DNA from: Methylotenera sp.
Lineage (GTDB): Bacteria; Pseudomonadota; Gammaproteobacteria; Burkholderiales; Methylophilaceae
Assembly (NCBI GenBank): GCA_002928535.1
Contig: PERG01000001.1
Location: 62,001 to 126,000, forward strand
Direction: 5' to 3'
DNA length: 64,000 nt
Positions 3,718 through 21,629 of the stretch are shown here, one piece after another. The stretch's first letter is position 1; every line of letters begins with the position of its first letter. Below the pieces are notes generated by a model, which did no database searches, was not told the origin of the DNA, and saw only the letters and a list, made by a program, of their open reading frames with translations. Both the position numbers and the translations under genes were made by a program.

Positions 3718-4049
3718 CACGATGATGGATCACCTGAAGCATTAACTTCACTTGGCTAAAGGATATGCAATAAACATAATTAATTTCAAGAATCTCCAAA
3801 ACTTACTCACTAAAGTTGGTAGCAATACAAATTGAGGTCTATATTGTATTTGTCTAAATAGTTTTCTTATTAAAGGAAGCTTTCAAGTTAGTAATGGGAA
3901 CTGCTCTCAATTCTAGTGCAACCAACTTGCTTATTGTTCCTCTAATCTGAAAATTAAAAAGATTTCCTCAGTATCTTGAAAATTAAGGGAATTTAATAAA
4001 TTTAAATCACAATGACTTAATACTTTCAATTTACATTTTCAGGCTACGT
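3718..4049. other. intergenic region, 332 bases
   Basis: This AT-rich gap separates the transferase pair from the large GGDEF/EAL gene. It has no open frame of interest and no clear intrinsic terminator. The only structured element I see is the RsaL-operator-like 15-mer at 3764-3778, reported separately. Confidence 0.6.
3764..3778 (+). promoter_or_regulatory. RsaL-operator-like 15-mer
   Basis: TATGCAATAAACATA matches 14 of 15 bases of the element in the luxI promoter read on the luxI strand (TATGCAATAAGCATA). It also fits the RsaL consensus I recall (TATGnAATTnnCATA) with one mismatch. It lies 272-286 bases before the start of the GGDEF/EAL gene, which is far for a repressor site unless transcription starts well upstream. 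It is the weakest member of the four-site set. Confidence 0.35.
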
Positions 4050-7000
4050 ATGAAGACAAATAAAGCTGAGCAAGCTAGGTTAGAAGAGTTGCAATCGTAT
4101 TCTATTTTGAACAAAGCGACTGAAAGTGATTTCGATAACATTACCCAGCTAATAGCGAATATTTGTGAAACACCCATCGCAACGGTGACTTTAATCAACA
4201 GCGATCGGGCATGGTGTAAATCCTCAGTTGGTTTGAAAGAGGAACATAAGCAACAGATTGCTTTTTGTATAAAAGCGATGGATGCAAAAGATATTTGCAC
4301 CGTTCCAGATACTTTATTAGATTCCCATTTCTCTTCAAACCCGATGGTGATAGGGGAGCCGTATATTCGGTTTTATGCAGGCATTCCTTTAATCTCTCCT
4401 AACGGACAGGCCTTGGGTGCATTAGCCGTTAAGGATTATCGCCCGCGCGAATTAACCAACATCCAGTTTGAGGCGCTTAAAACTTTGGCTGCGCAAGTGG
4501 TGATGTTGCTTGAGACCCGACGTCAAAGACATGTTCTGGAGCAATTGTCGCAAGAGCGTGATCTCATCAATCAGAAGCTCACTTTACAATCAGAACGGCT
4601 AGAAAAAGAACGGGAATTTTTACGTGCGCTATTAGAAAATTTAAATGAAGGGATTGTGGCCTGTGATGAAAACGGAAAGTTATCGCTGTTTAACCGCACT
4701 ACAAGAGAGATTCATGGCTTAATCGAAGAAAAATTGCCGCCTGAAGAGTGGGCGGAACACTATGACTTGTATCTAGCAGATGGGAAGACGCGGATGCCCA
4801 TTGAGCAGATCCCTTTATTTCGGGCTTACCGTGGTGAAAAAGTCGTAGATGAAGAATTGGTCATTTATCCTAGAAATAAACCTCCACGCGTTGTGAAGTG
4901 CAACGGGCAGCCTATTCTTAAAGCAGATGGTAAAAAGCTTGGTGCAGTAGTGGCGATGCGGGATGTGACGGAACAAAAAGCCAAAGATGTTGCATTGGCC
5001 AAAAGTGAAACCAAATTAGCTGCAATCTTTAATCAATCGTATATATTTCAAGGTTTGGCTGAAGCGGATGGCACGGTGATTGACATTAATGACCTCGCTT
5101 TGAATGCTAGCGGTTATCAGCGTGAAGAAGAAGTGGGTAAGAAACTGTGGGAAACCAGTTGGTGGAATAAGGACCCTAAAGTTGTTGCAGAGATGCACGC
5201 TATCGTACAAAAAGGTTTAAGTGGTGAAATCACTCATGGCGCGTCTGATTACTTTATAGCAAGCGGAGAGCGTCGACAAACCGAATTCGTGCTATCCCCC
5301 ATTCGCGATGAACATGGAGCGCTCGCTTACTTGCTCATCTCCGGTCAGGATGTCACTGATCGTAAAAAATCTGAAATTGAACTGGCAAAAGTAAATCGTG
5401 CCTTGCGCCTATTGAGCTCATCAGTGGAGCTGTTAATCCGCGCAGAAAGTGAATCTCAGTTATTAAAAGATGTTTGTGACTTGATTGTAAAAGTGGGTGG
5501 TTATGACTTGGCGTGGGTGGGCTATTCCTTTGAGGACGCTGAAAAAACCATTAAACCCATAGCCCATTCCGGCAACGCTTCTTATCTTAAAAAAATCAAA
5601 TTGTCTTGGGCAGATAATGTGGATGTCGGTAGAGGACCGGCAGCGCGGGCTATACGTGAGGGGAAAGCCATTGTCATTGAAGATGCCTTGACCGATGCTA
5701 GCTTTGCTCCTTGGGCTGCAGCTGCGCTTAAGAGTGGCTACAAAGGGGTGATATGTCTGCCCCTCCTGCACGATGATAGTGTGTTTGGTGTCATTGCCAT
5801 GTATGCAAAAACGCAGATAGAAATAATGGATAGTGAAATCAAGTTATTGCAAGAATTAGCTGATGATTTAGCTTTTGGCATAATGAATATCCGCGCGCAG
5901 GAAGAAAACCAGCGATTTCATGTGGCGCTATATAAAATGGCTGCCAGTGTATCTGCTTCAATGGATCAACAGTTTTTCCTGCAACTTACTAAGAATATGT
6001 GTGAAGCTACGAGTGCGGATCTAGGCTTTGTGGCTAAGTTACAATACACGGATACACCTTTGCTTCAAACACTTGCTACGGTTAAAGACGGAGCTGCATT
6101 TGAAGAGTTGAGTATGGTGCTAGACCCGGAGTCTTATGCGCAACTTAGTGATAAAGACAGTTTAGTTTTAACCGATCTAGGGTTTTTAAAGCGCCTACCG
6201 GCGCTAAGCAGATTAGGCATTCAAAGCTGTATCGGACACCGCTTAACAGACCCCAGCGGGATGGTTATAGGTCTGATCGTGGTGATGTTCAATACACTTA
6301 ATCATGAATCCAGTTTCGTGAGTTCATTAATAAAAATATTTGCTGCCAGAGCAGGTGCAGAGTTAAACCGCTTGTATTCCGACCGGCATATGCGGGAGCA
6401 AGCTTCATTATTGGATAAAGCCCAGGATGCAATTATTGTGCGTGATTTAGATAATCGGGTGCATTTCTGGAATTTGGGCGCGGAGCGCTTATATGGCTGG
6501 ACTAAAGAAGAGGCGATTGGAACACCTATTGAGTCGTTGTTGTACCCCGACCCCACCCATTTTAATATTGCCATGGAAAAGCTTTTGAAAAACGGTGAAT
6601 GGAATGGTGAAATTGAACAACATACCAAATTTATCGAGAAGTTGATGGTAGAGAGCCATTGGACCCTGGTTTATGATGATGAGGGGTTAATGCAATCCGT
6701 CTTTACCATTAACACCAATATCACAGAGCGGAAAGCCGCTGCCGATAAAATCCAGCACCTTGCGTTTTATGATCCACTCACCAAATTACCGAATCGGACT
6801 TTGTTGCTGGATCGATTGAAGCACGCATTGAACTCATGTGCGCGGAATCACTTATATGGCGCATTGCTCTTTATTGATTTGGATAATTTCAAATCGTTAA
6901 ATGATACTTTGGGTCACGATATTGGCGATTTATTGTTAATTAGAATTGGCGAACGTTTAAAAACTTGTGTGCGAGCTACCGATAGCGTGGCCAGATTTGG

Positions 7001-8108: not shown

Positions 8109-9978
8109 TTAAGCAGCATTCCTGGTATCTACTTTTCTGCGCTCAACAAATAGACTATTGCCCGCGATTGCTTTTGCTTGTTTCTTTGCTTTGCAAATAC
8201 TCGCTGAAATGTTGTGATGGGTCATCATGGGGGCGTTATCAATTCTAACTACGCCAATCGACATGGTTATAAATGGATTAAATACTTTGTTACCTTGGCG
8301 GTCTTTGGATTGAATGCCACCATTTAATCGATCTTTTTTATCATAAAATTTAGGCAATTCAACAGCTAGTGCGTCCAAGATTGCACGACAGCGTGTTTCC
8401 CAGTCTTCACTTTGAAACAAAATAATAAAATCATCTCCGCCGACATGGCCGACAAAATCGATGGCCGGCTGTGCACTTTCTTGCAATAGCTTTCCAGTGT
8501 ATTGAATGATTTCATCTCCACGCCTGAAACCGTACTTATCATTAAATGGTTTGAAGTTATCCAAGTCGCAGTAGCAGGCCCAGAATGTGATGCCGTTATC
8601 GATCAGGCGATCCATGTGCTCATTGATAGGCACATTGCCCGGAAGCAGGGTCAATGGGTTGGCGTATCGCGCGGCAATAATCTGCATTTCGGTAATTTCA
8701 CGCAATAAAGCATGACCGCTACTCACGCCGATATAACGTCCCTGATCGGTAACGATAAAGCCGGTCGTTAAATGATGCGGTTCCATGCCGGTAATCAAGT
8801 TACTGATGGCCTGCAGGCTCATACATTTCTCTACAATCAAGGCTTTTTTATCGGTAAACACCATGCAGGATTTTTTACCGTAAATCTCGCGTGCGTACTG
8901 ACGGGATAACTGATGGGAAATATTGTATCGACTGATAAGACCTAGTGGTGTGTCATCATCAACCACTGGAATAAGTACAAATGCGGCGTTTCTTCAAATA
9001 GCTTGTAGATGTCATCTACAGTGGTTTTAGATGAGGCGGGTGTGATATGCACAGTAAGCTTTTCCAAGCCATTGTTTTTTTGAATTGAAGTGAACTAGCA
9101 AGGTTGTACGGTAATACTCTTCTTATCAAGAATCCGCTTTAAGTCAGGGTCAAGGTACTTTAAAGGCGCAGCTTGGGGTTTACCCAGAAAGAAGCCTTGG
9201 CCATAAGTAATATCCAAGTCTTTAAGAATGGTTAACTGTGCTTGCGTTTCAATCCCTTCTGCAATGACCTTGGAGCCACAATTTTTGGCAATTTGCGCGA
9301 TGGAGCGGACGAATTCCAGCTTAACCGGGCTTTGGTCAATACCTGTGATGAAGTGTTTATCTATCTTGACATACTCAGGCGACAGCTCAGACCATAAACG
9401 CAGGCTGGAAAAGCCTTCGCCTAAGTCATCAATGGCGATTTCAAATCCGAGGCTACGATAATGGTCCGTCGCTTTGCGTAGCAAATCATAATCATAAGTG
9501 GGTGAGCTTTCAGTAAGTTCTATGATGACATTGGTAGGGTTCAAGCCCAACTTCTGAATATATGCCAAGGTAGCACCCTTACAGGAGCGCGGCTCAATCA
9601 GACTTTCCGGACTGACATTGATAAAAAGTTTAAAAGGATTATTGCTGGCGGCAAATGATTCGAGCACGATCTGCCTACTTAAATGTCCATCTCAAATCCC
9701 AGATTATGCTTTCTGGCTGATTCAAATAAGGCTAAAGGGGAATGCAGGCTGGTATTTTCTGGGCCGCGGATTAAACCTTCATGAGAGTAGATTTCATTTT
9801 TTGCTATATGCACGATGGGCTGGAATACAGCCTTTAGTTGTCGTTGTTCTAATATTTTGAGGAGGAGTTGCTGCGTTTGGCTTGGCAGTTGGACCACTGA
9901 AGATGCCAATCTGGTCATGGTAGAACCCCAATTGATTTGGAGTTCTTGAAGGTCGTGAATATATGGCTGCATTTTCAT
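8109..9978 (-). pseudogene. broken EAL-CBS-GGDEF c-di-GMP gene (two frameshifts and one stop)
   Basis: Read on the minus strand from ATG 9978, the pieces make one protein in three frames. The EAL start (9978-9679) ends at a premature stop after FEMDI. The rest of EAL (to 9095) is in the next frame and ends at an in-frame TAG (9095-9097) after KSITVQPC. The CBS start then continues in that frame, and the CBS-GGDEF part (8966-8109) is in the third frame. Adding one base near 9682 (a T run) restores LSRQIVLESF after FEMD. Adding one base near 8974 restores IPVVDDDTPLG. EAL residues (EGL, NVSPESL, IDDLGEG, KIDKHF, AEGIET) and a GGDDF motif remain readable. Three independent lesions suggest real decay, though both shifts are single-base losses that could be sequencing errors. 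Separate short proteins might still be made. Confidence 0.82.
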
Positions 9979-10084: not shown

Positions 10085-10861
10085 TTACGTTGGCGTGTGC
10101 GCTAAATCTACCTTAACTTTATCGAGAATCTTTTCCAATTCCAAAGGCATGGTTTTACTTAAATGAAAGAGTGAAGCCTGAGCCGCTGGCATCAGTGTGG
10201 TGGGGTGCCCTAACTTGCTATTGCTATAAATCATGCTGGACATATCGACACTAGTCACTTCTTTACTGGCATCTAAAATGACTTTTTCAAATTGATTCGA
10301 TTCTTGCGGAGACAGCAAATGGGTGTGAGTCGTACATATGCAATCTAATGCTTCAGTGTAATTTGCATGATTCAAGTTATCAATTTCATACGCACACAAG
10401 AGCGAAAAGTTATAGTCTTTTAAAAGCGCATTCCATAGCATTTCAAGCTGGATGGCGGATTCTTTTTCTTCATTCTTCCATAGAATATTCACCATCTCGC
10501 CGTAAACTCTGGCGCTTGAGAATCGGCTGAAGACTTTTCGGAATATTGGGCTTACTGCGTCCAAGAACAGTTGTGCGTTGGGCATACCGTTCACCATAAA
10601 TGAAGCTAACAGGGTATGAGCATCTAAAAGGGTTAACTGTCCTTTTTTTATGAGCTCGTTAGGATCGTAACCTCTAAAAGTAAGTGAGGTACAGAAAATA
10701 TCGGTATGGAGGGACGTTGCAACAATGATTATGCCCTCTTGATCCGTGAGCCTATCTGCGATGAAATGACAGACAGCATCTGACAACTGCGTAGCTTCTT
10801 GGTAGAGTTGTACGTAATGGTTGCCTACAGTAGGTAATTCAAGCATTTCTTTAGAAGACAT
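10085..10861 (-). CDS. MEDS-domain (DcmR-type sensory) protein
   Basis: This 258-residue soluble protein resembles the MEDS domain, a RecA/KaiC-derived sensory fold first noted in the dichloromethane regulator DcmR of methylotrophs. The features are an N-terminal HYVQLYQ with ADRL/EGIIIVATSLH, a central GQLTLLDAHTLLASFMVNGMP and FSSARVYGEMVNILW, and a C-terminal LLCAYEID. No DNA-binding domain is visible, so it probably acts through a partner. It lies between c-di-GMP genes. Its start (ATG 10861) has no clear ribosome-binding site. An RsaL-operator-like palindrome sits 28-42 bases upstream, where it would overlap a promoter. Confidence 0.78.
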   Translation of the reverse strand: MSSKEMLELPTVGNHYVQLYQEATQLSDAVCHFIADRLTDQEGIIIVATSLHTDIFCTSLTFRGYDPNELIKKGQLTLLDAHTLLASFMVNGMPNAQLFLDAVSPIFRKVFSRFSSARVYGEMVNILWKNEEKESAIQLEMLWNALLKDYNFSLLCAYEIDNLNHANYTEALDCICTTHTHLLSPQESNQFEKVILDASKEVTSVDMSSMIYSNSKLGHPTTLMPAAQASLFHLSKTMPLELEKILDKVKVDLAHTPT

Positions 10862-10888: not shown

Positions 10889-10903
10889 TATGCATTACGC
10901 ATA
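10889..10903. promoter_or_regulatory. TATGC-N5-GCATA palindrome upstream of the MEDS gene
   Basis: TATGCATTACGCATA has perfect 5-base arms around 5 bases. Its reverse complement differs from the site before the cyclase operon (18014) by one base. The position, 28-42 bases before the MEDS start codon, fits a repressor operator over the core promoter. Confidence 0.5.
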
Positions 10904-11216: not shown

Positions 11217-13739
11217 CTAACGATTTTTCGCTTCATAAATCTGGAAATTATTCCTGCCTGCTGCCTTAGCGTTATACATAGCTTCATCAGCATGCCGTAT
11301 TAATACATTCAAGTCTGTGCCATCCTTTGGATAAGCCGCGATACCGACACTTATGCCAACCTGTAATTTATAGCCAGTTGCCTGGATAGGTGATTGCAGC
11401 ACCTTAAACAACTTCATCAAGACAATACTTGATTCTTTCGGATGGTCTGTATTTGGCAATATAAGTGCAAATTCATCGCCTCCCAAGCGGGCTAGTGTGT
11501 CCGACGGCCGAATGTTTACACTAATGCGGGCAGCAAACTCTTTTAGTAATGCATCACCTACGTGATGACCAAAAGTATCATTTACTTTCTTAAAGTAATC
11601 GATATCGATCAATGCAATCGCCATTTGCGTATTGTCGCGCTTTGCTTGTTTCATGGCAGTGTTGATGCGGTCATCAAATAGGGCGCGGTTTGGCAGGTTA
11701 GTGAGCACATCATGCATGGCAACATGGTGCATATGGCTTTCATTTTTTTTCTGCTCGCTGATATCGCGTAAGGTCACAGCCACCCCATCGCCCAGTTTGA
11801 CGATTTGGCGCGCAATCCATGAGGCAGCAATCGATGCCTTATCTAATTTCAGTTCGTCGTTAATCGAAATCCCGGTATCGATTACCTGTTTAAATCGATC
11901 AAAGTACATAGGCCCCCGTGTAAAGGGAAGTTCTTGAAGCAATAGCGTATTGATAAATTCTTCTGGTTTCCTGGAAATTAAATCGCCACCACGTTGGTTG
12001 ATATAACTACACCGGAAATCAATGATTTGATGATTTTCATCCCGTACAGAATCGAAAATATAGAAGCTATCAAAACTACCTTCCGTTGCGGCCACGAACC
12101 TTATTTTTTCTCGTTCCGCTTGCCGGCGTGCACTGTCAATATTCCTGATCAGGGGCACCAGGTTACGATGGATAAACCACAATCCTAGACCTAGTAACCC
12201 AAAAATGAACCATGCGGCTCTATGAAATTGCTCTTTAATCGGGCTATAAATTTCGGCGATATCCATCTTAATGACCATGCCCAGGCCGGTGTTTCCAATG
12301 GGTCCGTAGGCTGCTAGCACACGGTCACCTTTGTAATCTATCGTATTGATGAGACCGGTTTCCTTTAAATCTAAAGCACGGCTCATGGGAATTCTGTGCT
12401 TTTGGTAAAACTTTTGTATGCGGAAAGGTTTTTCTACAATGCTGGATGGAAAGCAATTCAAGACTGTGCCTTCAGCACTGCACACCACCATGTCGCGGCT
12501 ACTGTTTTGGATGATGGTGCTTTCACGCAAGGCATTGATGGATTGGAGCCGTTGCTCAATCCAGATATAGCCGACCAATACCCCATTCAAATGCATGGCA
12601 ATGCGTGAGCGCAGCTTGTAGCCAGAGTCCCATAACAGCACGCCTTTATGGTCGCCATGAAACATCACTTCAAAAGCGTCATAATTGGAAAGCTGGCCGG
12701 AGCCTGGCCATAATTCGCCGCTTATACCCTCATATGCGATCGCCGTCACTTCATCAGAACGTAAGTTGTGGCTTAATGAAATCAGCCTGTTTTTGAGGCG
12801 CAAGTTTTTTGGCATTTTATTCAACTCACTCACAACAGCGGAAAGTTGAGGCGAAGTGCTCAGTAAATGCGCATACTCGGTACGGGAGCGTAGGCTTTTC
12901 TGAAAGAAAAACAAACGATCGTTTGCCATCTGTTTTAAATGGCCGGAAATTATGTCGTTGGTCCGCTGGGCAAATATGGCAAAGGTAGATACCCCGGTGA
13001 GAGTACATATAATGGTTAACGCGAGTGCGGCAGTGATATATACCTTGCGAACATTACTGGAAAGCGGATTATTTTCCTCTTCGTCATTTTCAAGCTTGGA
13101 CATATTGAACAAGCCAAAGCCAAGCAGAATGATTGAAATCGATGCCGGGATGGCCATCCTGACGTTGCCGGTCCAGTTGTAAAGGTATTCCATATTAATC
13201 CAGTAATCGAAAAACCCCATCCAGCCTAAGAGGCCGGCAATCGTGGCGAAGATCTGGATGATTTGTTTGCGATGTTGGATTCGATTGGTTTTGAAGCTGT
13301 ATACCAGCAAGCCTAAGCCGAATGAGAGTAGGGCTGCGGATGTCAGGGGTGGCATACGGCCTGGATAGATATGTTCCGCTTGCAGTGATCGGTGCATATC
13401 TGCAAGGTCCAGTTTTAGATCCAGACCAGATATGACTTCTAATAAGCTAAGTGAACTGATCAATAAAATGATAGCTGCAATCAGCCGCAGCCCCTTAGAG
13501 GCTTGCTGTACAGGCAGGAGGAACGTAAGGAGGATAGCAAAACCGCCTAAGAAACAGCAGACTGCAGTATTAAATACGGTGGGTACCCAATTGGACTTGC
13601 CCCTAGTGAGTACTGGCAGGTCAAATATCCAGCCTAACAGGGCAGCAGAAGAGAGAAGTAATACAAGCGTCCCGCAAATGAGTATGAACAAGCCATTGTC
13701 ATTTGCAATTGATTGCTTATTGTTCTGAGCAAGCTTCAT
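11217..13739 (-). CDS. membrane-bound diguanylate cyclase with extracytoplasmic sensor and PAS
   Basis: This 840-residue protein makes c-di-GMP from two GTP. About seven membrane segments lie in residues ~15-255 (a MASE-like block), followed by an extracytoplasmic region of ~240 residues that resembles CHASE/dCache-type sensors. Another membrane segment (~505-525) precedes a PAS-like region and a C-terminal GGDEF domain (~675-835). The active site RLGGDEF is intact and the I-site RPSD lies five residues before it, so product inhibition is expected. There is no EAL domain. A nest of inverted repeats lies directly before its start (13741-13807). A 73-residue Cys/His protein follows in the same operon. 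Confidence 0.9.
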   Translation of the reverse strand: MKLAQNNKQSIANDNGLFILICGTLVLLLSSAALLGWIFDLPVLTRGKSNWVPTVFNTAVCCFLGGFAILLTFLLPVQQASKGLRLIAAIILLISSLSLLEVISGLDLKLDLADMHRSLQAEHIYPGRMPPLTSAALLSFGLGLLVYSFKTNRIQHRKQIIQIFATIAGLLGWMGFFDYWINMEYLYNWTGNVRMAIPASISIILLGFGLFNMSKLENDEEENNPLSSNVRKVYITAALALTIICTLTGVSTFAIFAQRTNDIISGHLKQMANDRLFFFQKSLRSRTEYAHLLSTSPQLSAVVSELNKMPKNLRLKNRLISLSHNLRSDEVTAIAYEGISGELWPGSGQLSNYDAFEVMFHGDHKGVLLWDSGYKLRSRIAMHLNGVLVGYIWIEQRLQSINALRESTIIQNSSRDMVVCSAEGTVLNCFPSSIVEKPFRIQKFYQKHRIPMSRALDLKETGLINTIDYKGDRVLAAYGPIGNTGLGMVIKMDIAEIYSPIKEQFHRAAWFIFGLLGLGLWFIHRNLVPLIRNIDSARRQAEREKIRFVAATEGSFDSFYIFDSVRDENHQIIDFRCSYINQRGGDLISRKPEEFINTLLLQELPFTRGPMYFDRFKQVIDTGISINDELKLDKASIAASWIARQIVKLGDGVAVTLRDISEQKKNESHMHHVAMHDVLTNLPNRALFDDRINTAMKQAKRDNTQMAIALIDIDYFKKVNDTFGHHVGDALLKEFAARISVNIRPSDTLARLGGDEFALILPNTDHPKESSIVLMKLFKVLQSPIQATGYKLQVGISVGIAAYPKDGTDLNVLIRHADEAMYNAKAAGRNNFQIYEAKNR

Positions 13740-17878: not shown

Positions 17879-18013
17879 GCTCGGCTAACAAAAGATTGGA
17901 CTAACAAAAGATAGGCTGAGCAAAAAGACTTGCTCAGTAACGCAAGGCAGGATTTTAGCGTTTTAACTTCAAACTAGCTAATACATTTATTTGTAAATAT
18001 TATCTTACAAAAA

Positions 18014-18028
18014 TATGCTTAATGCATA
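18014..18028. promoter_or_regulatory. TATGC-N5-GCATA palindrome upstream of the cyclase operon
   Basis: TATGCTTAATGCATA has perfect 5-base arms and differs from the luxI promoter copy (TATGCTTATTGCATA) at one base. It lies 74-88 bases before the cyclase start and about 136 bases before rep on the other side, so the cyclase is the more likely target. Confidence 0.5.
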
Positions 18029-18101
18029 AACTAAGGTTATGATATCGATAGATTTTTTCTTTCAATATAATAATAAAAATCAATAATTTCCCTCCATTTC
18101 C

Positions 18102-19304
18102 ATGACAGATAGACTTAATAAAACGTCCATTTGCAGCATCGTTTTTTTGGATATTATCGACCATTCAAAAAAGCCCGTTTCTGAACAAATTGATGACAAA
18201 AATTTATTTAACGGTTTAATTAATGAGGCCATTCAGAACGTGGCGCAGACTGACCGCATTATTTTAGACACAGGCGATGGTGCGGCGATTACGTTGATGG
18301 GATCGCCGGAAGAAGCGCTTTTTGTAGCGCTGACAATACGAGATGGGATTTTAGAATTTAATAAAACCAATAACCGTAATATCCGGCTAAGAATTGGCAT
18401 CAACTTGGGTTCGGTCCGAGTGGTAAATGACATTAATGACCGACCCAATATTATTGGCGACGGGATTAATGTAGCCCAGCGGATAATGAGCTTTGCCGAT
18501 GAGAACCAAATTTTAGTTTCCCGCTCTTATTTTGAAGTGACTTCGCGTTTAACCCATGAAATTACCGATATGTTTACTTATTCGGGAATTAAACAAGATA
18601 AACATGTCCGCGAACACGAAGTGTATTCAATTAAGTCAAAAGCAGGAGATGAGAGTATGCCGGAAGGCTTATTTAGCACCCCAGAAAATGAAACCGAAGC
18701 GGCTGGGTTACTTAAAAATATTGTAAAGCCATCACATCTTGTGATTGCGTTGATAACTTGTGTATTATTGTTTTTGGGAGGTTGGTATGTATTAATACTT
18801 AAACCTGCATTCAATGAAAACAATAATATTGATATATCTTTAGGAACATCCAAACAATCCTCATCCTATGTACCGAAATCATATGTACCAAGCGTTGATG
18901 CTGAGACTGAAAAAAAGATGGTGATTACATCATCTGGAGATACTCCATTGCCTAAAGCTGCAACCAATACTGCAACGAAAGAGCAAGCCACCCCGATAAA
19001 GAATACAGTCGTTAATTCAGAAAAGCAGACTCGCGAACAAGCGCAGTTTTCTTCATCAGAAGTGGTACGTGAGCCAGCACCTAAATCACCGGGAAGTGAA
19101 AAGAGTGCTATTAAAAAGTATAATCCGCCCGCTGCTCAACGAGATGAAAGTATGAGTGCTGCTGTCCAACAAGATCAGAGTAGAAATACTGCTGAAAAAG
19201 TGAAAGCCTTTGCTAGCCATTGGAAAAAAAGCTTTTTAACACCTGCAACAAAGCCAAGCTGTACGCAAGTGCAAATTTCGATGAACCAATGCCAGAACAA
19301 TTAA
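18102..19304 (+). CDS. class III nucleotide cyclase-like protein with one membrane anchor
   Basis: Residues ~8-190 form a class III cyclase homology domain. Metal-binding Asp residues are present (FLDIID and TGDGAA), as is the transition-state pair in GDGINVAQR. The positions that normally select the purine are unusual: Leu where adenylate cyclases have Lys (RIILDTGDG) and Asn in RPNIIGDG. I recall the same pattern in other betaproteobacterial members, so it looks like a subfamily feature. A single membrane segment (~207-227) is followed by a ~170-residue Ser/Thr/Lys-rich, low-complexity extracytoplasmic tail. No Shine-Dalgarno is evident before ATG 18102. An 86-residue gene follows after 9 bases. 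An RsaL-operator-like palindrome lies upstream. Confidence 0.78.
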   Translation: MTDRLNKTSICSIVFLDIIDHSKKPVSEQIDDKNLFNGLINEAIQNVAQTDRIILDTGDGAAITLMGSPEEALFVALTIRDGILEFNKTNNRNIRLRIGINLGSVRVVNDINDRPNIIGDGINVAQRIMSFADENQILVSRSYFEVTSRLTHEITDMFTYSGIKQDKHVREHEVYSIKSKAGDESMPEGLFSTPENETEAAGLLKNIVKPSHLVIALITCVLLFLGGWYVLILKPAFNENNNIDISLGTSKQSSSYVPKSYVPSVDAETEKKMVITSSGDTPLPKAATNTATKEQATPIKNTVVNSEKQTREQAQFSSSEVVREPAPKSPGSEKSAIKKYNPPAAQRDESMSAAVQQDQSRNTAEKVKAFASHWKKSFLTPATKPSCTQVQISMNQCQNN

Positions 19305-19313
19305 GGTGATTAT

Positions 19314-19574
19314 TTGAGATCTACTAAAGCCAGCGGGGCTGTTGAACGCCTGAAACGACGGTCTGAGAATGCTTATTACTCATTGGTAATCAGTGGTAAT
19401 GGCCTTTTCTCTTTAGCCTTGATGAAAGGTAATGGAGAGTCTGAGCGCTTATGTTCGCCTATGCAACTTGATGATTTTGTTACGTTTACGAATGGTTATG
19501 GTGCCCAGACGCCTAAGAAGTTAAGCAAATTAGATATTGAATTCAGCAAGCAACTTAAGAAATCTACCGGTTAA
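19314..19574 (+). CDS. small protein of unknown function, cyclase operon
   Basis: This frame of 86 residues starts at TTG 19314 with AAGGTGAT at a suitable distance, 9 bases after the cyclase stop. It is basic, lacks a signal peptide and membrane segments, and has no motif I recognise; YYSLVISGNGLFSLALMKG is the only hydrophobic patch. Tight spacing to the cyclase argues for co-transcription and a related role. It could be an effector or modulator of the cyclase, but that is inference. Confidence 0.6.
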   Translation: MRSTKASGAVERLKRRSENAYYSLVISGNGLFSLALMKGNGESERLCSPMQLDDFVTFTNGYGAQTPKKLSKLDIEFSKQLKKSTG

Positions 19575-19665: not shown

Positions 19666-20244
19666 TTAAGCAGCGATATCCATAGACAGTGCAGCATAAG
19701 TCTTATCTACATCCATATACAATGCAACGGCAGTTTCTACCCCAATCACCAAAGGCGGAGCGAGGCGAGTGACCACACAGCCTGCGCGTTTTAACAAACG
19801 CTCTACTGCCGTAGTCGTAACGGTGACATACTGCTGTATGGCATTTTTTTGCCCAAACGCCATCATTTCCCGAATACATTCAACCGTTAAATGCGTGAAG
19901 CCAAAGCCTGTATTACCGTCGGTTTCAATCGCAAATCGACTTAATTCCCAAATACTTTTATCTTCCGGTGCGGCTTCACCATTCAATAACTCCGGAAATG
20001 AATCTTTAAGCATGTATGGTCCTTCAGTCGGTAAAATTCTCCAACAGCCTTTGACCTCACCAGTGCGTTCTTTCACCAGCATGTAGGTCGGATCAATCGC
20101 ATCGTAACCATCAATTTCCATACCGCTTAACACTGGCACTTCCCAACCCATGCGTTCTTTAAATACCCGAGCTCTTAATTTATGCATCGCCCATAAATCT
20201 TCACTTTTGAAATGTTTTCTTTTCGCAATTCTAATCTTTAACAT
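19666..20244 (-). CDS. acyl-homoserine lactone synthase (LuxI family)
   Basis: The enzyme makes an N-acyl-homoserine lactone from S-adenosylmethionine and an acyl carrier protein thioester. Nearly all conserved LuxI residues are seen: R24, F28, W34, D45, D48, R69, F83, E100 and R103, several with LuxI numbering. Length (192 aa) is normal. The start ATG 20244 has AAAGGGG about 8 bases upstream. The gene is divergent from an RsaL-like repressor, with a candidate LuxR box (20311-20330) and a candidate RsaL operator (20289-20303) between them, in that order toward luxI. The acyl chain cannot be predicted reliably. Confidence 0.95.
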   Translation of the reverse strand: MLKIRIAKRKHFKSEDLWAMHKLRARVFKERMGWEVPVLSGMEIDGYDAIDPTYMLVKERTGEVKGCWRILPTEGPYMLKDSFPELLNGEAAPEDKSIWELSRFAIETDGNTGFGFTHLTVECIREMMAFGQKNAIQQYVTVTTTAVERLLKRAGCVVTRLAPPLVIGVETAVALYMDVDKTYAALSMDIAA

Positions 20245-20288: not shown

Positions 20289-20303
20289 TATGCTTATTGC
20301 ATA
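20289..20303 (-). promoter_or_regulatory. candidate RsaL operator in the luxI promoter
   Basis: On the luxI strand the sequence is TATGCAATAAGCATA. The RsaL consensus I recall from Pseudomonas lasI is TATGnAATTnnCATA, so 10 of the 11 defined positions match. It lies 45-59 bases before the luxI start, just downstream of the candidate lux box, as expected for a repressor that competes with LuxR activation. It is also 102-116 bases from the rsaL-like start, allowing autoregulation. Confidence 0.6.
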
Positions 20304-20310
20304 TTTTTGT

Positions 20311-20330
20311 AACTGTAAGAGTTGCTAGGT
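20311..20330. promoter_or_regulatory. candidate lux/las box in the luxI promoter
   Basis: AACTGTAAGAGTTGCTAGGT has the NNCT-N12-AGNN layout of LuxR-family operators such as LasR boxes. It is centred about 76 bases before the luxI start. With a transcription start near 20278 it would be at about -42, the usual activator position. The dyad is weak beyond CT/AG. Confidence 0.42.
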
Positions 20331-20404: not shown

Positions 20405-20665
20405 ATGAGCAAAGATAATTCACAGAATGTATCGTTAAGTCCGGAAGCTTTACGTGGACTAAGGAAGATACGTCGTGAGAGTCAGACTAGGTTTTGGAAG
20501 CGCTTTGGCGTAACGCAATCCAGGGGTAGTAGGTTCGAACAGGGTATGGAAATTCCATCGCCCGTCAAGATTCTAATTAGGCTTTATATGGAGGGCGTAG
20601 TGAAGGAAAGGGATCTGCTACATGCGCGCAGAAATACAATGTTTAATGTGGCTATAACTGAATAA
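20405..20665 (+). CDS. rsaL: RsaL-like helix-turn-helix repressor
   Basis: RsaL represses the AHL synthase gene to give signal homeostasis. The protein has 86 residues, the RsaL size, with RRESQTRFWKRFGVTQSRGS and RFEQGMEIPSPVKILIRLYM. This resembles, from memory, RsaL's RRESQ..FWSRFG.SQS.GSRFE and the P.P...LLRFY.EG that follows. The start is ATG 20405, with AAGGA 8 bases upstream; an in-frame ATG at 20297 would add 36 non-conserved residues. Its position matches lasR-rsaL-lasI: divergent from the synthase gene and convergent with the receptor gene, whose 3' end it overlaps by 14 bases. A matching operator lies in the luxI promoter. Confidence 0.82.
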   Translation: MSKDNSQNVSLSPEALRGLRKIRRESQTRFWKRFGVTQSRGSRFEQGMEIPSPVKILIRLYMEGVVKERDLLHARRNTMFNVAITE

Positions 20666-21368
20666 TGCCGAGCTTTAAAGCCTTGATGATTGCCTGCTGT
20701 TTGGTGTTGACATTGAATTTTTGACGAATATTGCTTAAGTGGAAATTAATTGTGGATTCTGAACAGTTAAGGATTTTGGAAATTTCCCAGGAAGATTTGC
20801 CTGCAACCGACCAGTGAATTACTTCATTCTCCCGGGGGGTTAGTGCAATTTGCGTTTCTGGTGTGTGGTAATTTAAAAATTTCTTGGAGGATTCAAAAAC
20901 ATAATCCCGAATAATCGCTAAAGCAGGCATGGATTGCACCATATCTTTTTGTGTCGCTGGATTATCTAGGTGCTCCGATACAAAACTCATCATGCCGAAC
21001 TCGCCATTCGGCCCGTGAATCGGAAATATGATGCCAGTCTTTAGACCATAGCTGGTCGCTTCTTCATACATGTTCTGTTGATCTGGTTTCTTAAAGCAAT
21101 CGGGTGTCCATAGCAATGGGATATTACTTTTAAGACAATGGGTTACGGTAGGATCTACGTAACCTAACCCTTGATTATCGTAAGTGCTGCGCCAATCTTT
21201 AGAGTAGTTGCTTCGCAAAAAAGCATTTTCGATGGGTTCATCTTTAGATTTTAATACTGCAAATAATGTTTGCTCGAAGCCAATGTTTTTTGCCATTGAA
21301 AAAACAGTGTCTGACCAATTTTGCTCATTAGTTGCCTCTAAAAGGCCAGTAAATTGATCATATTTCAA
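20652..21368 (-). CDS. LuxR-family AHL receptor/transcription factor
   Basis: The protein has 238 residues. The N-terminal autoinducer-binding domain has the conserved W59, Y63, D72, P73, W87 and a Gly in GLKTGIIFP. The C-terminal LuxR HTH (~175-235) has LTPRENEVIHW, AGKSSWEIS and INFHLSNIRQKF. It should bind the lactone made by the adjacent synthase and activate luxI. The start codon is TTG (21368), supported by GAGG 8 bases upstream; no in-frame ATG fits. Its 3' end overlaps the rsaL-like gene by 14 bases, so antisense effects between the two transcripts are possible. Confidence 0.93.
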   Translation of the reverse strand: MKYDQFTGLLEATNEQNWSDTVFSMAKNIGFEQTLFAVLKSKDEPIENAFLRSNYSKDWRSTYDNQGLGYVDPTVTHCLKSNIPLLWTPDCFKKPDQQNMYEEATSYGLKTGIIFPIHGPNGEFGMMSFVSEHLDNPATQKDMVQSMPALAIIRDYVFESSKKFLNYHTPETQIALTPRENEVIHWSVAGKSSWEISKILNCSESTINFHLSNIRQKFNVNTKQQAIIKALKLGIIQL

Positions 21369-21442: not shown

Positions 21443-21629
21443 AGGCAATCACTATCCCCACCTAGTATAAATACTAGTCTTATAAATAATAATGATATGA
21501 CATAGTTTGCCTAAATACTAACTTAATTAAAAGGAGCTTTAAGGGGAAACTTGAATATAGCAGTAAGTAAATAACAAGAATACGAAAAAACAAGAAGAAG
21601 AGAATGGCTTTGGTTTAAATCAATGCACG

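Follow-up and report, generated by a model that had tools for sequence, protein, structure and literature searches.

A palindrome predicted to be the RsaL operator at luxI recurs before a nucleotide cyclase operon and a MEDS gene in a Methylotenera genome

The quorum-sensing locus and its palindromes

The window analyzed here is a stretch of 64,000 nucleotides from a Methylotenera genome (2,319,441 bases in 41 contigs, 87.63% complete). It contains a luxI-type synthase gene close to genes for an RsaL-like protein and a nucleotide cyclase-like protein, together with several other second-messenger genes and a recurrent 15-bp palindrome. The features relevant to this work are the following:

3764..3778, plus strand: one-mismatch site TATGCAATAAACATA, weak candidate upstream of the GGDEF-EAL gene at 4050
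10085..10861, minus strand: MEDS-domain sensor gene, 258 aa (Pfam MEDS, E=1.4e-18)
10889..10903, no strand: palindrome TATGCATTACGCATA, predicted RsaL operator before the MEDS gene
11217-13739: GGDEF gene (Pfam)
18014..18028, no strand: palindrome TATGCTTAATGCATA between rep and the cyclase gene, predicted RsaL operator
18102..19304, plus strand: class III nucleotide cyclase-like protein, 400 aa (Pfam Guanylate_cyc, E=4e-8)
19314..19574, plus strand: small gene after the cyclase, 86 aa, with a similar counterpart behind the cyclase of a related genome, G004
19666..20244, minus strand: luxI-type acyl-homoserine lactone synthase gene, 192 aa (Pfam Autoind_synth, E=2.4e-37)
20289..20303, no strand: palindrome TATGCTTATTGCATA, predicted RsaL operator overlapping the likely luxI -10
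20311..20330, minus strand: lux box ACCTAGCAACTCTTACAGTT, 7 bp upstream of the luxI operator
20405..20665, plus strand: rsaL-like gene, 86 aa (Pfam HTH_92, PF22495, E=3.4e-22)
20652..21368, minus strand: luxR-type receptor gene (Pfam Autoind_bind and GerE)

The preliminary description of this DNA had spoken of an RsaL-like protein, an identity borne out for the 86-aa product of 20405-20665 by its assignment to HTH_92, by its match to the structure of Pseudomonas aeruginosa RsaL (5j2y, E=3e-15) and by the position of its gene, which sits between luxR and luxI and is divergent from luxI in the classical luxR-rsaL-luxI layout. The ends of luxR and rsaL overlap by 14 bp, and luxR/rsaL overlaps are described for the L1 layout in the available text of an earlier report (PMC3386692). 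Residues Q38, S39, G41, S42, R43, F44 and E45 are invariant across six aligned RsaL sequences, and the protein is the sole match at E 0.001 or better in the genome, which is 87.6% complete. HTH_92 is wider than luxI-linked RsaL: all four weaker homologues from other families that were tested belong to it, and their reading as MqsA antitoxins was rejected on that basis. The pattern TATG-N7-CATA lies near the homologue's own start in 3 of 24 weaker-homologue loci (L027:1428, L032:1778, L033:1742), which, together with the four HTH_92 assignments, suggests that the family may share one operator type.

The cyclase matches PDB 3mr7 (E=8e-8) and carries the motifs FLDI, TGDG and NVAQR, with the PF00211 match covering only residues 74-154. 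When it is aligned to 3mr7, the purine-choosing positions are Leu and Asn. We take these two positions to be the substrate-choosing residues and, because both differ from the usual, we do not predict the product of the enzyme. For the product of the small gene at 19314-19574, neither Pfam nor NCBIfam gives a match at E 0.1.

A pattern scan of the whole 64 kb finds TATGC-N5-GCATA (hereafter, the strict site) three times, at 10889, 18014 and 20289, always in intergenic DNA and within a span of 9.4 kb. Shuffled windows contain a mean of 0.05 strict sites and none of 100 shuffles reaches three, in agreement with the original claim that three intergenic copies lie far above chance; under a third-order Markov model the expected density is 0.25 per Mb across the window as a whole and 2.25 per Mb in the DNA between its genes. 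The 18014 and luxI copies were correctly said to differ by one base. The sites lie 73 bases from the cyclase ATG (18102, plus strand), 27 bases from the start of the MEDS gene (10861, minus strand) and 44 bases from the start of luxI (20244, minus strand). The coding mask covers seven bases of the luxI site because the mechanical rsaL frame opens at a TTG (20297); we place the rsaL start at the ATG at 20405.

At luxI, the end of the palindrome overlaps CATAAT (20292-20287, minus strand), a likely -10 element, and the adjacent lux box has the top lux-box score in the window (18.6, with a training set that included this box). In its sequence, its location and its neighbors the site fits RsaL. 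A consensus promoter scan found no promoter at luxI or at the MEDS gene. Upstream of luxR there is a near-perfect dyad, ACCTAGTATAAATACTAGTC, at 21460-21479, which scores weakly as a lux box (7.8).

The one-mismatch site at 3764 lies 271 bases before the GGDEF-EAL gene at 4050, whose domains were assigned by our own reading. The stretch TATGCAATAAACATAATTA in the 3764-3778 region matches 18 of 19 bases of the luxI operator stretch. Elsewhere in the window, EAL and apparent GGDEF pieces occupy consecutive separate frames on the minus strand at 8109-9978 (9679-9978, 9095-9667 and 8109-8966), as if one gene had been broken by frameshifts or sequence errors.

Association of the palindrome with rsaL at luxI promoters

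To ask whether the palindrome belongs to RsaL, we scored ten arm positions upstream of luxI in 80 luxI loci, the best 80 of 174 relatives retrieved with a single-protein query; these loci are not independent, and many belong to Massilia. An adjacent, divergent rsaL was detected at 67 of the 80 loci, with arm scores of 10 in 23, 9 in 34, 8 in nine and 7 in one. Five more loci have an rsaL match at the equivalent position, excluded by the span filter (scores 10, 10, 10, 9 and 9), and one more rsaL-luxI locus ends at a contig edge (score 10). Nine or ten of the ten arm bases are hence present in the luxI promoter at 63 of 73 loci with an adjacent divergent rsaL (one of them cut by a contig end), versus none of the seven loci with rsaL elsewhere or not found, where scores are 7 or 8; in five of these seven rsaL lies on the far side of luxI, and in two none was found. 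Among random 303-bp windows of the same loci, 26 of 3464 score 9 or 10, a conservative background because loci whose luxI stands at a different offset may contribute to it. The 940,579 bases of the 80 loci hold 32 strict sites, 27 of them within 250 bp upstream of luxI, compared to no copies of the reversed pattern, none with N4 spacing and one with N6 spacing.

Across the 63 luxI operators, A2, C5, C12, A13 and T14 are invariant, G11 occurs in 62 and the five central bases vary; since the 63 were picked by arm score, only the contrast between arms and center is informative. A fully free center was rejected, with a purine at position 6 in 55 of 63 and a pyrimidine at position 10 in 53 of 63; in the window, the sites at the cyclase and at luxI each break this rule on one side and the MEDS site obeys it. 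The preliminary description had read the palindrome as an operator for the RsaL-like protein, and sequence comparison supports this prediction well.

Many Massilia luxI promoters (L155-L213) have a near-perfect operator 48-50 bp after the start of the lux box and, 21-22 bp ahead of that operator, a degenerate copy where the -10 would be, suggesting tandem sites. As a general feature of luxI promoters, tandem operators at this distance were discarded, given a modest average signal (about 3.1 versus about 2.4) that other offsets equal, and no tandem operator accompanies the cyclase and MEDS sites of the window. In two Massilia genomes a strict site, TATGCGTCTTGCATA (L273:2001) and TATGCAAGTCGCATA (L282:2001), lies near the same gene, which we read as that of a putative ribosomal protein L17.

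An operator matrix built from 61 luxI operators, with the window and G004 left out, ranks the three strict sites as the top three of the window (MEDS, 20.8; cyclase, 18.1; luxI, 18.0; maximum possible, 21.1). The next-best site scores 14.2, the 3764 site scores 11.0 (rank 7), and 1 of 40 simulated windows contains a site scoring at least 18.0. Control of the cyclase and MEDS genes by LuxR was assessed with a lux-box matrix whose 31 training boxes, the window's own included, score from 18.8 to 30.0, and was rejected, with best scores of -1.5 and -2.7. With no lux box at either gene, control there would be exerted by RsaL alone.

Frequency and conservation of sites outside luxI

A genome-wide scan, which the preliminary description had proposed, yields five strict sites, the two beyond the window lying on contigs C10 and C38, and no copies of the reversed control pattern. 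Both additional copies are intergenic by ORF reading. With no copy inside a gene, the motif is not common in coding sequence in this genome; its being common there had been named beforehand as the outcome adverse to the operator reading. The sites had also been said to precede signalling genes, which holds for the three in the window and fails for the other two: the C10 copy precedes a gene without an assigned family, and the gene after the C38 copy is read as a putative bactofilin.

The number of copies is in itself only slightly above the genus norm. The 51 other genomes of the genus label contain 90 strict sites in about 113 Mb, versus 92 reversed controls, so most strict sites in such genomes are due to chance; at this rate 1.8 would be expected here, and the probability of at least five is 0.04. 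Genome-wide over-representation was therefore rejected as proof, and the looser TATG-N7-CATA is useless at this scale (23 copies versus 22 of the reversed control). What is notable is the occurrence of three copies within 9.4 kb and of all five outside genes. Against a background of mostly chance sites, a lone extra site would carry little weight, but a pair of intergenic sites less than 10 kb from rsaL carries more: the genus rate predicts 0.016 strict sites in 20 kb, and two more would arise about once in 8,000 cases.

Conservation was examined across the 187 genomes of the family, five of which contain an RsaL match that reaches E 1e-10 or better. In four of the five rsaL adjoins luxI; in G004, the only other genome of the genus label with such a match, rsaL and luxI end two contigs. 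Two further genomes of the label, G027 and G036, have weak matches. A single contig of G004 carries luxI (85%), the cyclase (51%) and the small gene in the same order as the window. Its luxI promoter combines a lux box, 7 bp and TATGC-ATTTA-GCATA, versus TATGC-AATAA-GCATA in the window, with all ten arm bases kept, two of the five central bases changed and one change in the lux box; the spacing between lux box and operator is the same in G004 and others. Because most flanking bases are conserved too, apart from changes in the lux box and the 7-bp linker, this promoter alone is modest evidence, and the weight for operator identity is carried by the broad luxI survey, not by G004 alone. The bases TTACAAAAATATGC that precede the center in both the luxI and cyclase sites of the window differ from the corresponding G004 luxI flank, TTACATCAATATGC.

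Outside luxI, G004 has no strict site in front of its intact cyclase or of its MEDS gene, and the upstream region of the MEDS orthologue has a half site at best. The rep-side region is homologous (CAAAAATATGCTTAATGCATA in the window, CAAAAATGTGCTAAACATATG in G004) with the palindrome broken, and the intact cyclase copy has a different upstream region. On contig C180 (L116) of G004, positions 2325-2978 hold a truncated second cyclase copy beside rep, with a degenerate palindrome upstream. The broken palindrome beside this remnant implies that the operator was either lost with its gene in G004 or gained in the lineage of the window.

The other genomes scanned do not extend the cyclase site. In three further RsaL-bearing genomes of the family (G061, G062 and G068), the 400 bp preceding the scanned cyclase homologue hold no site with nine or ten arm bases, and these cyclases lie on a contig other than that of luxI or 134 kb away. 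Among 14 cyclase upstream regions of 400 bp, from the window and from 13 genomes drawn from the 29 others with a cyclase match, only that of the window reaches at least nine arm bases, and cyclase-site conservation consequently failed as proof. Five genomes of the genus label without RsaL (G009, G010, G013, G021 and G030) have no site at their cyclase homologues, which is compatible with both a functional and a chance origin of the site.

Strict sites not associated with luxI were also compared according to their position relative to ORFs. Where a luxI-linked RsaL is present in the genome, 14 of 38 such sites fall outside ORFs of at least 100 aa, versus 3 of 29 in genomes where no luxI-linked RsaL was found (p=0.003 in a rank test of ORF length; p=0.02 for local G+C). 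The 38 sites come from 16 genomes hand-picked among the matches listed (14 of 32 searched, plus G061 and G068, which also count among the 32 as G287 and G266), and those 32 genomes hold 117 strict sites, luxI ones included. This contrast favors operators outside luxI and is indicative only.

Predicted regulation, alternatives and known systems

On balance, we consider it reasonably probable from these comparisons that the palindrome is an RsaL operator at luxI and also at the cyclase (18014) and MEDS genes. The lux box at 20330-20311 would allow LuxR with its lactone to recruit RNA polymerase to luxI, and an RsaL dimer on 20289-20303 would cover the -10 element, shut luxI down and keep the signal in bounds. 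The 18014 site is probably a lineage-specific RsaL operator placed over the core promoter of the cyclase: if TATGAT (18038-18043) is the -10 element, the palindrome would cover the -35 element and spacer. The consensus promoter scan at the cyclase gave no predicted promoter overlapping the palindrome. Directly upstream, at 17991-18010, there is a dyad, TTGTAA-N8-TTACAA, possibly the site of a second regulator. At the MEDS promoter RsaL would likewise exclude RNA polymerase, 27 bases before the gene. Rising RsaL, presumably following cell density, would then turn down the cyclase operon and the MEDS gene without LuxR, with the sign of regulation inferred from the lasI case. The control of the cyclase operon by RsaL put forward in the preliminary description is plausible, and better supported than a chance match, judged solely by the similarity and position of the site, and we regard it as probable but unproved.

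Three other readings were considered. Only the luxI copy might work, with the cyclase and MEDS copies being chance matches; this would agree with the lack of intact counterparts of both sites in G004 and with a genus average of about 1.8 strict sites per genome, equal to the reversed control. We consider it rather unlikely, since it has to accommodate the roughly 1-in-8,000 coincidence of two extra sites in 20 kb, the intergenic location of both, scores equal to or above that of the luxI site under a matrix blind to the window, and the flanking bases common to the cyclase and luxI sites. Alternatively, RsaL at 18014 could act on the divergently oriented rep helicase gene, alone or together with the cyclase gene, given that the site lies between the two. 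It is, however, 135 bases from the rep start, compared with 73 for the cyclase, and is separated from rep by a terminator-like hairpin on the rep strand; a block with the possible -10 TATGAT follows the site directly on the cyclase side and recurs before the intact G004 cyclase, making a role at rep improbable.

Least credible is the control of the cyclase and MEDS genes by a different regulator with the same palindrome. The breadth of HTH_92 beyond luxI-linked RsaL, seen in all four weaker homologues tested, and the TATG-N7-CATA patterns near the own start in 3 of 24 weaker-homologue loci would allow for such a protein, but the single RsaL-like match at E 0.001 or better in this genome (87.6% complete) makes it very improbable. 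Beyond the operator assignment, we put forward only tentatively a wider model in which RsaL stands at the center of a small local regulon that has no lux box except the one at luxI. Quorum sensing would then reach the cyclase, the MEDS gene and perhaps the GGDEF-EAL gene at 4050 only via the repressor, switching them off as the population grows, and the regulon might have been gained recently by few operator mutations around rsaL.

These results provide a sharper candidate operator for betaproteobacterial RsaL, for which dozens of genomes can be scanned. They also identify, in a methylotroph relative, a candidate link by which acyl-homoserine lactone quorum sensing would reach a nucleotide cyclase. 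The RsaL literature we found is mostly on Pseudomonas. A literature search directed at text rather than motif-logo figures found neither an RsaL-cyclase link nor a TATGC-N5-GCATA consensus in the available text of five sources (PMC11139201, PMC3386692, PMC8041468, PMC9927353, PMC3742214); the operator may already be in print.

In plant-associated Burkholderia (Paraburkholderia), the BraI/BraR-RsaL system has the luxR-rsaL-luxI layout and reported repression by RsaL (PMC3742214). The Paraburkholderia luxI promoters retrieved here often carry operators with nine of the ten arm bases, such as TATCCGAAATGCATA. A cyclase-linked site such as that predicted at the Methylotenera locus goes unmentioned in the available text on BraI/BraR-RsaL (PMC3742214). 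In P. aeruginosa, according to the available text of one report, RsaL recognizes a site with the consensus TATGnAAnTTnCATA that overlaps the lasI -10, activates rhlI and protects sites that do not fit the palindrome (PMC11139201), so that neither the sign nor the targets of regulation can be read from sequence alone. The window encodes a homologous helix-turn-helix protein with the conserved stretch FW-RFG--QS-GSRFE-G, and its gene is likewise located between luxR and luxI. As at lasI, the operator predicted here is a 15-bp dyad with TATG and CATA ends that would lie over the predicted -10 of the synthase gene. The length and outer TATG and CATA of TATGnAAnTTnCATA are present at all three window sites and its inner AA/TT is at most half matched, the window form being TATGC-N5-GCATA with a variable center. 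The system further differs from P. aeruginosa RsaL in its extra candidate targets, the cyclase and the MEDS sensor gene, which, if true, would show a quorum-sensing repressor gathering new local targets without its receptor.
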